From: an uncultured Phycisphaerae bacterium
GTDB lineage: Bacteria > Planctomycetota > Phycisphaerae > Sedimentisphaerales > Anaerohalosphaeraceae
Assembly (NCBI GenBank): GCA_937949545.1
Contig: CALEDR010000010.1
Coordinates: 1-40,504, forward strand
Length of the DNA stretch: 40,504 nucleotides
Direction of reading: 5' to 3'
Part shown: positions 8,513 through 15,400 of the stretch, one piece after another
Numbering within the stretch: position 1 is the stretch's first letter
Layout: each line of letters begins with the position of its first letter
Notes under the pieces: generated by a model
Seen by the model: only the letters and a program-made list of their open reading frames with translations
Databases searched by the model: none
What the model was told of the DNA's origin: nothing
Translations under genes and position numbers: made by a program

Positions 8513-8660
8513 TTTTTGGAGTCTGTTGATTTAGAACAGATTTGTAATTCTGAAAAAGTTAATTTGGATATTTTTTAAAAATCGGTCTTATGGGGGTTCA
8601 TTTCCTTTAAAAAAAACGTTTTTTTATTGACGACAGTCTTTTGTTGGAGTATAGTTTTGG
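8513..8660. other. First part of a 474-bp gene-free gap
   Basis: The gap 8513-8986 holds no convincing gene. This first part contains a weak hairpin (8522-8527 with 8535-8540, followed by TTT) that could end the surface-gene transcript. An A/T-rich tract follows, including a run of A, CG and a run of T at about 8609-8625, just before the promoter at 8627. The remainder of the gap is described under the RNA candidate. Confidence 0.6.
8609..8655 (+). promoter_or_regulatory. Near-consensus sigma-70 promoter with A/T-rich upstream element
   Basis: TTGACG at 8627-8632 and TATAGT at 8650-8655 are separated by exactly 17 bp, matching the housekeeping consensus at five of six positions each. The A- and T-tracts at 8609-8625 immediately upstream resemble an UP element. 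Transcription would start near 8661-8663. No open reading frame follows before a strong terminator, so the product is probably RNA or a regulated leader. Confidence 0.75.
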
Positions 8661-8923
8661 AGGTGGGAAAGAGCTGTTCGGTTCCTTCTAATAAGGGGTA
8701 AAAAGGAGGCTAAAGACAGAATACAAAGGTTTTTAGCCAGACAGGGCGGGCGGTTTCTCTGAGATATAGTTAAGGATCAGAGCAAATCGGCAAAAAAGCA
8801 GAGAAGCTTTGGCAAGTTCAAGAACAATAAGGGCTTGCTCGCAGTAATTATAAAAAGAGAGCAAATTTCTTCTCATCACCCTCCTCCGAAGCCAGATTCC
8901 TGTATGGGAGTCTGGCTTTTTTT
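8661..8923 (+). ncRNA. Candidate structured RNA (stand-alone RNA or leader of the NYN gene)
   Basis: Between the promoter at 8627-8655 and the terminator at 8890-8923 there is no convincing coding sequence but several perfect stems: 8708-8714 with 8732-8738, 8757-8762 with 8777-8782, and 8835-8840 with 8859-8864. The two ends can close the molecule: 8659-8663 pairs with 8883-8887, 8665-8667 with 8879-8881, and 8671-8673 with 8872-8874. This gives a multi-branched fold of about 230 nt followed by an independent terminator. I do not recognise a known family: the core motifs of SRP RNA, RNase P, tmRNA and common riboswitches are absent. A 6S-like role is conceivable from size and closing stem but the branching argues against it. 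A riboswitch controlling the gene at 8987 is the alternative. Confidence 0.55.
8890..8923 (+). terminator. Rho-independent terminator
   Basis: Arms 8890-8900 and 8907-8917 pair over 11 bp with one wobble around a 6-nt loop. Seven T residues follow, through 8923. It lies 63 bp upstream of the NYN-domain gene, so it either ends the RNA candidate or attenuates that gene. Confidence 0.85.
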
Positions 8924-8986
8924 CTTTATGGATATACAATGACGGTTTGGTGAGGCATATTGGTTGTTTCTTGAAGGGGTTTTTGG

Positions 8987-9823
8987 ATGTCAGGACAAGA
9001 CAATAGTTTGAAAGTAGGGGTCTATGTCGATGCTGCTTATGTGTATAAAAACGGCGGCCGGGGAATGCAGTACAATATTCTTCGGGAATTTTCCTGCCGA
9101 GAGGGGGCGCAGGTGATTCGTCTGAATGCCTACGTGAGTTTTGATGCAGACCGTGCGCATGAAGACGCCGTTTTTGGTGCCAATGCTAAAAAGTTCCATT
9201 CTTTTCTGCGGGACCTCGGCTACAAAGTGATTATCAAAGAGGTCAAGTGGTTTGTGGATGAAGAGACCGGTCAGCGGTTCGGCAAGGCCAATGCGGATAT
9301 GGATTTGGCAACCGACCTGCTGATTCAGTCCGAGCATCTGGACAAAATTGTGCTGGTGTCGGGTGACGGGGATTTTGTGAAGGTGGTTAATGCTGCTCAA
9401 AATCGCGGCTGCCGGGTTGAAGTGATCGGCTTTGACAATGTCTCCGGCCGACTCAAGGAGGAAGCAGACCAGTATTTCTCCGGCTATATGATTCCCAATC
9501 TGCTGCCGACCGACACAGAAATTCCCTGGGGACAGATTGGTTCGGTGGTGCGAGGGACATGCTCCTATTTCAACAAAGAAAAAGGATTCGGTTATCTTCG
9601 GTATTTGAAAGAAATCTCGCCGTATCTGTGGATAACGGATATTCAGCGTCCGGGAAGTCCGTATGGGATGGCCTATTTTCGGGCGGGCAGTCTGCAGAAT
9701 GCCGGCGGCGTCGAGCTGCCCAGCTACAATCATATCTTTGAGTTTGAACTGATGACCCCGCAGCGGGATGACCAGCTGCCGGTGGCCAACAATGTTCGGC
9801 TGATTTCGGTGATTCCTTATTGA
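8987..9823 (+). CDS. NYN-domain (PIN-like) putative ribonuclease with cold-shock-like C-terminal domain
   Basis: A 278-aa cytoplasmic protein. Residues about 8-165 form a NYN/LabA-type domain: VGVYVDAAYVY (Asp15), ANADMDLATDLL (Asp104, Asp106) and VSGDGDF (Asp127, Asp129) supply the acidic residues that bind metal in this PIN-like nuclease fold. Residues about 183-278 begin with GSVVRGTCSYFNKEKGFGYL, which resembles the RNP1 region of cold-shock/OB-fold RNA-binding domains. The protein therefore probably binds and cuts RNA; the substrate is unknown. GAAGGGG lies 7 nt before ATG. The gene sits alone, downstream of the candidate structured RNA and its terminator, and converges with the TonB receptor genes. 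Confidence 0.8.
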   Translation: MSGQDNSLKVGVYVDAAYVYKNGGRGMQYNILREFSCREGAQVIRLNAYVSFDADRAHEDAVFGANAKKFHSFLRDLGYKVIIKEVKWFVDEETGQRFGKANADMDLATDLLIQSEHLDKIVLVSGDGDFVKVVNAAQNRGCRVEVIGFDNVSGRLKEEADQYFSGYMIPNLLPTDTEIPWGQIGSVVRGTCSYFNKEKGFGYLRYLKEISPYLWITDIQRPGSPYGMAYFRAGSLQNAGGVELPSYNHIFEFELMTPQRDDQLPVANNVRLISVIPY

Positions 9824-15328: not shown

Positions 15329-15400
15329 GCGGGCGTAGCTCAGGGGTAGAGCGTCACGTTGCCAACGTGAATGTCGTGAGTTCAAATCTCATCGCCCGCT
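15329..15400 (+). tRNA. tRNA-Gly (anticodon GCC)
   Basis: The acceptor arms 15329-15335 and 15393-15399 pair perfectly over 7 bp, with discriminator T at 15400 and no encoded CCA. The D-arm (AGCTCAGGGGTAGAGC), a 5-bp anticodon stem around TTGCCAA (anticodon 15361-15363) and the T-arm with GTTCAAATC are all canonical. Confidence 0.97.

Follow-up and report, generated by a model that had tools for sequence, protein, structure and literature searches.

Several described groups of bacterial small RNA (sRNA) bear some resemblance to the locus reported here. The LhrC sRNAs of Listeria, as far as they are set out in PMC4132741, are present as five copies of 111-114 nt, with a UCCC/CU-rich motif that blocks translation initiation and with Hfq being dispensable. 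In Bacillus subtilis RoxS, FsrA and CsfG all have C-rich regions, and FsrA and RoxS are described as using theirs on targets in the account given in PMC8216469. Sigma-28-dependent sRNAs that derive from UTRs are reported from E. coli (UhpU, MotR, FliX and FlgO; so described in PMC10578931), and sibling sRNAs within one genome feature in the reports on Neisseria (PMC5362039, PMC9973317). No paper on the small RNAs of planctomycetes or of Phycisphaerae came up in searches of an open-access library.

The window, a stretch of 40,504 nucleotides from an uncultured Phycisphaerae bacterium, very probably carries the gene of a stand-alone sRNA, belonging to a family that spans an order and has no model in Rfam. 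A sigma-70-type promoter, TTGACG-17-TATAGT, starts on the + strand at 8627, has a 17 bp spacer and ends at 8655, with an A/T-rich tract immediately 5' (about 8608-8626). An earlier note on this DNA had called the promoter near-consensus, which is borne out by agreement at 10 of 12 consensus positions, and by eye both promoter and 17-bp spacing are kept in three relatives, with TTGACG in G004 and G003 and TTGACC in G001. Between 8000 and 10000 three promoter-like sites were found against 1.5 expected, with one other, on the minus strand, also agreeing at 10 of 12 positions. The intrinsic terminator (8888-8923, + strand), likewise proposed before, consists of a hairpin of 14 pairs (8888-8919) and a T-run, and is by far the longest of the three such terminator-like sites found, against 2.8 expected. 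From the -10 box and the terminator a + strand transcript of about 262 nt (8661-8923) is predicted, with RNA polymerase starting near 8661 and presumably stopping near 8920. The stretch had been described as free of reading frames, and indeed 8655-8922 contains no + strand ORF that reaches 50 aa. The 262-nt RNA, terminator included, has a folding energy of -84.3 kcal/mol (z -3.9), and none of 200 shuffles folds as low. A gene for an NYN-domain protein (PF01936; window 8987-9823) follows the RNA in this genome (G000) and in G001, G003 and G004; for G002 the contig breaks off about 0.2 kb past the RNA, too early for the NYN gene to be judged, and a different gene lies upstream. Within the genus the NYN-domain protein shows unusual conservation (90-99% identity in G001, G003 and G004), and the LamG-domain protein encoded on the opposite flank of the RNA has 58-67% identity in G001 and G003.

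The earlier note could fit the RNA to no known family and had proposed a search with Rfam covariance models. At gathering score Rfam 15 gave nothing in the window beyond a tRNA at 15329, a permissive search of 8560-8990 gave chance-level matches only, and of eight sibling loci seven gave no match and the eighth (L109) only a tRNA. The RNA, likened to 6S in size by the note, is not 6S RNA (RF00013), which has no match in the window and whose one match in the genome, at 55.7 bits, sits on another contig (C11). The suggestion of a stand-alone regulatory RNA agrees with its own promoter, its own terminator, the lack of a frame and the sister copies found elsewhere.

It is these sister copies that show which part of the RNA is under constraint. 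A DNA search with 8655-8922 found matches in 45 of 59 relatives (own genome counted), near full-length only in G004 (87%) and G003 (71%) and elsewhere with the 3' end alone, and 30 of the 45 matching genomes have two or more match places. Most of the RNA body evolves quickly and the constraint sits in the last ~60 nt, which are made up of UCAUCACCCUCCUCC and, directly after it, the terminator hairpin. That these 60 nt are multi-copy had been missed by the earlier reader, whose stress on a branched structure was misplaced, the invariant part being a seed, TCATCACCCTCCTCC (8873-8887, + strand), just 5' of the terminator. This seed is common to all three copies of the genome, and in an alignment of 44 copies (alignment A1) the module reads TCATCACCCTCCTCCGAAGCCAG, followed by the rest of the hairpin and the T-run, with the sequence 5' of it unrelated. 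The module has sharp borders, unrelated leaders and three copies in the own genome, which the covariance model of A1 finds at 80, 76 and 72 bits, the next match there, at 20 bits, being the window hairpin read on the reverse strand.

Within A1 98% of the hairpin cells pair, four of the 13 pairs are changed on both sides against 1.4 in shuffles (5 of 500 shuffles reach four), and the covariation score of the hairpin is reached by none of 500 shuffles. Unique seed sites in the loci number 170, and 24 of them are without the usual GAAGCCAG/GGAGCCAG stem; for 21 of these exceptions the printed folds have another hairpin that begins no more than 2 nt after the seed (e.g. L272, L273, L276, L282, L316, L368), with no replacement hairpin in L139, L160 and L163. 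L375 and L379 have no T-run after the seed, and the seed of L367 sits inside a long ORF. As the hairpin is compensated or replaced whilst the 15-nt seed stays, what is conserved is sequence in the seed and structure in the hairpin. The extraction pattern fixes most letters of the seed, so values of 100% seed conservation arise partly by selection, with the covariance-model scans and the counts of replaced hairpins depending less on it. Ten loci that failed the seed/terminator pattern were left out of the 94 copies extracted, and at least four of them (L267, L272, L273, L282) have the seed in front of a different hairpin; outside the genus the numbers of copies per genome are minima. The nucleotide preceding the seed mostly belongs to a CTTT, in 60 of the 94 copies and in 46 of 47 sigma-28-like copies.

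Among the genomes searched the family is found strongly only in one order of Phycisphaerae. When 248 sampled genomes of the class were scanned with the covariance model 45 matched at E <= 0.01 and 38 below 1e-6, all 38 strong matches belonging to the order of the window, which has at least 46 members in the sample, and the rest being weak; a scan of 392 genomes of the phylum gave seven at E <= 1e-5, again all of the same order, with both scans run under stricter filters. In named genomes at least 114 stretches carry the pattern CATCACCCTCCTCCGNNGCCNG. Of the 80 matches listed 73 have planctomycete names (Planctomycetota, Planctomycetes, Phycisphaerae, Phycisphaerales, Sedimentisphaerales, Anaerohalosphaeraceae and the like), the other seven being Nealsonbacteria, Aenigmatarchaeota (2), Xanthobacteraceae, Pseudomonas, Eubacteriales and an unnamed bacterium. 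Plasmid records gave no match to the module. The contig named Nealsonbacteria (Patescibacteria; L079) has two module copies with different hairpins, one of them tail-to-tail with a Y1_Tnp transposase gene. On a contig named Aenigmatarchaeota (L109) two modules flank a tRNA, and by eye a CsrA-like ORF lies beside an archaeal-type ArgRS; this contig is perhaps chimeric or misbinned. G011 has the module in tandem, with about 200-250 bp between the copies (L083/L378 and L115/L252).

Whilst the 3' end is shared, the promoters are not. Promoters of the sigma-28-like form TAAAG-N17/18-CGAT precede 87 of 133 copies, these being the copies with at least 140 nt upstream and the terminator pattern, in the last 140 nt of which the motif AAAG-N12-18-CGAT was sought; shuffles gave 2.1 (maximum 6, 200 runs), although they preserve base composition only, as do those of the other-promoter, antisense-frame and seed-access tests, and related copies are not independent. 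In a control region further upstream the same motif was found in two of 132. Of the 87 spacers 67 have a length of 18 and 15 a length of 17, and the median distance from the end of CGAT to the seed is 60 nt. The motif resembles the sigma-28 consensus, that of E. coli, with 1-2 nt more spacing. A FliA/WhiG-type sigma factor is over the curated cut-off in 55 of the 59 relatives, with three such genes in the own genome. Among the four without one (G022, G037, G042, G046), G037 has one copy, with a sigma-70-like promoter, and G042 and G046 have no strong copy of the module. The fourth, G022, which is 68% complete, has a sigma-28-like copy and no FliA match over the cut-off, which speaks against the sigma-28 link unless the sigma gene lies in the missing part of the genome.

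Other promoters were found amongst the 46 copies without the sigma-28-like motif. Nine have an ECF-like AAAC/GAAC-N14-18-CGTY, against 0.8 in shuffles (maximum 4), and 15 have a sigma-70-like pair in 280 nt, against 3.4 in shuffles (maximum 9). Altogether 94 copies in 55 genomes were classed, with at least one sigma-28-like promoter among the extracted copies in 46 of the 55. The six genomes of the genus have three copies apiece, made up of a single sigma-28-like one, one with the TTCTTC ahead of the seed that marks the window type, and a third of another kind. For the window type the sigma-70 promoter is clear in G000, G001, G003 and G004 and weaker in G005, with none found in G002. In the third copy an ECF-like CGTC can be made out by eye in G002 and G005, the remaining four genomes having no more than a degenerate form. 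The window copy, with its sigma-70-type promoter, lacks the sigma-28-type promoter of sigma-28-dependent sRNAs. The sigma-28-like copy of the own genome is flanked by the end of a secretin-like gene and by a panB-like gene (names by eye), and in this genome the sigma-28-like motif occurs at 24 places against 19 for a control pattern, giving no clear regulon. A TAAAG-N17-CGATA at G000:C30:80156-80182 is situated about 0.2 kb 5' of the best FliA/WhiG gene (G000:C30:80386-81051), and is possibly a self-regulated promoter.

The seed itself is the complement of a textbook translation start. The reverse complement of CUUUUCAUCACCCUCCUCC is GGAGG-AGGGUG-AUG-AAA-AG, that is a Shine-Dalgarno (SD) sequence, a 6-nt spacer, a start codon and a Lys codon, and the seed resembles the tail of the own 16S rRNA, GGATCACCTCCTTTCT, with one extra C. 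A C-rich motif complementary to the SD, CCCUCCUCC, lies within the seed (alignment A1), and further features of trans-acting C-rich sRNAs, namely an own promoter, an intrinsic terminator and no ORF, are found at the level of sequence. Hfq had no match in 59 genomes, in a search to which five of 14 controls respond. The SD-AUG complement, the lack of an Hfq match and the lack of a gene on the opposite strand together make Hfq-independent pairing with translation starts the best reading, and this predicted mechanism of action is a likely one. In the 46 sigma-28-like copies the seed is on average 0.66 unpaired, the same as in shuffles, and no selection for an open or a closed seed was seen in them.

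In a search for targets, exact complements, GGAGGAGGGTGATG, were found in the own genome only in the three sRNA genes, and allowing up to three mismatches gave 343 sites where the reversed pattern gave 194, a difference to be expected of an SD-like pattern; of 17 two-mismatch places read, two open a frame of at least 60 aa at an ATG with the SD in place. With GGAGGNNNGTGATGAAAA, allowing up to one mismatch in 37 genomes and counted by eye, there were 34 non-self hits in 30 genomes with the module and six in seven without a strong match, which is no enrichment. Sixteen of the 21 non-self loci of GGAGGNNNGTGATGAAAA that were read start a frame with a signal-peptide-like N-terminus (by eye), although the pattern itself favours such starts. 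One candidate target is a PEP-CTERM gene, for which GGAGG(A/T)AAGTGATGAAAA is kept in G000, G001, G004 and G005; the candidate site is not kept in the orthologue of G003, which reads GGAGGAAAAGATGAAAA instead, and G002 gives only a weak partial match to the protein.

The reading that we favour, with a probability of roughly 0.6, is that these are trans-acting, Hfq-independent sibling sRNAs which share a 3' seed and block translation initiation under different sigma factors. The 3' seed UCAUCACCCUCCUCC would pair with the region from Shine-Dalgarno to start codon of target mRNAs, and this pairing would block ribosome binding without Hfq. The siblings would put the same seed under different sigma factors, which from the promoter motifs are expected to be the housekeeping factor for the window copy, a sigma-28-like one for the second and perhaps an ECF-like one for the third, with the differing leaders possibly tuning expression or access to the seed. 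Against this reading count the absence of target enrichment, the candidate site that G003 does not keep, a seed no more accessible than in shuffles and only 0.34 unpaired in the window RNA, and the sigma-28-like copy of G022.

The long head of the window copy holds the internal stems listed in the earlier note. Head hairpin 1 (8708-8738, + strand; 10 bp), with the stem 8708-8717/8729-8738, is unchanged in G004 and nearly so in G003, with no covariation. Head hairpin 2 (8749-8791, + strand), taken from the folds of four sequences, re-forms with different pairs through compensatory changes in G004, G003 and G001. A small hairpin-like motif, ACTTTGGCAAGTT (8804-8821, + strand), forms a 6-bp hairpin in those three and is weak in the window, and the stem 8835-8840/8859-8864 is present in the window and G004, is not found in G003 and is absent from the predicted fold. 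Of the three stems first listed, 8708/8732 is kept (G004, G003), 8757/8777 is compensated and 8835/8859 is kept in G004 and not in G003, and the compensatory changes suggested as a check are found in 8749-8791 but not in 8708-8738. A stem closing the two ends of the RNA had also been proposed. No other leader stretch of the window RNA pairs as strongly with the seed region as do the first 25 nt. These are G-rich, however, and when they are shuffled with only base composition preserved the same strength is reached in 26% of cases for the window, 51% for G004 and 28% for G003, and a closing stem that sequesters the seed was rejected as unsupported beyond base composition. The head may, on modelled folds, gate access to the seed, which is 0.34 unpaired in the predicted window RNA, with the gating stem being no better than base composition predicts.

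It could be argued that the structured head of ~200 nt has a function of its own, as a sensor or protein decoy, with the 3' module being a shared end only. Long heads are kept in four species of the genus (total RNA about 254-325 nt), with compensatory changes in one hairpin and a fold z of -3.1 to -4.0 across the four, terminator included; in RNAalifold one pair of the heads is changed on both sides and the covariation term is slightly unfavourable, for an alignment of 3-4 sequences that is too shallow for statistics. Yet the head diverges fast, the DNA search matched only the 3' end beyond G004 and G003, and the leaders of siblings that share this end are short, with a median of 54.5 nt in the 46 sigma-28-like copies, all of which makes such a function improbable. 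Somewhat less so, although still unlikely, is that the 3' module is a tag for a protein, without any pairing of the seed to mRNA starts, the binder being for example a KH-domain or cold-shock protein with a stabilising effect on RNA 3' ends. A tag would account for 15 invariant nucleotides without a visible target set, and for the module also ending phage genes and occurring in late regions of phage contigs, but a protein site would have no need for an optimally spaced complement of a translation start or for likeness to the 16S tail.

Two explanations tied to the neighbouring sequence fare worse. The earlier note had offered a riboswitch-like leader of the NYN gene, and a cis-acting leader (riboswitch or attenuator) is suggested by the gene starting at 8987, 63 bp downstream, and also following in G001, G003 and G004. 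However, G005 has no NYN gene within 1.5 kb downstream, so the position before this gene is not constant, each genome of the genus has two siblings elsewhere, and the RNA has its own terminator, which belongs to the shared module, making a leader very improbable. The minus strand reads SD-ATG at the seed, and in the window an ORF of 68 aa covers it, so that the RNA might be conceived of as a type I antitoxin, antisense to a small gene on the minus strand that starts exactly at the seed complement. Over 132 copies, however, this frame has a median of 11.5 codons against 12 in shuffles, with at least 30 codons in 23% of copies against 15% of shuffles; as frame lengths are those of shuffles an opposite-strand small ORF is refuted as a general explanation of the seed, and an antitoxin in the window is hardly credible.

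The module is also carried by phages. There are 13 viral contigs with TCATCACCCTCCTCCGNNGCC, in 12 of which a terminator-like pattern follows, and several viral contigs have the module inside an ORF (L366, L367 and L374 among them). A tyrosine integrase (PF00589) lies about 245-365 bp upstream of the module on the same strand in L364, L365, L371 and L372, the same layout is found in L060, a contig of a planctomycete MAG, and in L362 and L369 the integrase is about 1 kb downstream. Use as a phage attachment site is usual for tRNA and tmRNA genes (PMC4383910). By analogy the attachment site of some phages may be the 3' end of the sRNA gene, whilst others would keep the module for what its RNA does. 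A lysogen having the module at either end of the prophage was not seen, and searches of an open-access library gave no recognised description of phage integration into sRNA genes.

It is tempting, although speculative and rather doubtful as a whole, to picture an Hfq-less planctomycete order running a broad translation brake, in which one invariant 15-nt seed, complementary to a generic translation start and nearly identical to the 16S tail, is placed through siblings on several sigma classes (housekeeping, sigma-28-like, ECF-like) and phages carry the seed, partly using the gene 3' end as attachment site. Whatever becomes of that picture, the family is order-wide and easily recognised, with a fixed seed and several promoter types, and it offers a way to test how sRNAs that act by base pairing manage without Hfq, and whether a single seed matching a generic translation start is capable of specific regulation. 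If the phage reading is true, an sRNA gene joins the landing sites of phage integrases.

Amongst known systems LhrC, as portrayed in PMC4132741, is similar in being multicopy, in having a C-rich motif that acts at the SD and in having no need of Hfq. It differs in that its copies are, in the same account, almost identical over their full length with three redundant motifs, whereas the copies of the window family have only the 3' end in common, differ in their promoters and match no Rfam model. RoxS, FsrA and CsfG are comparable as several sRNAs of one genome with C-rich regions (within what PMC8216469 relates), but no sequence relation to them was found and the window family has a longer, invariant seed of 15 nt directly before the terminator. 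With the sigma-28 sRNAs of E. coli the family shares sigma-28-like promoters, although its members are separate genes and the window copy itself is sigma-70-like. The Neisseria sRNAs can be likened to it by one trait alone, as portrayed in PMC5362039 and PMC9973317, that of being siblings within one genome.
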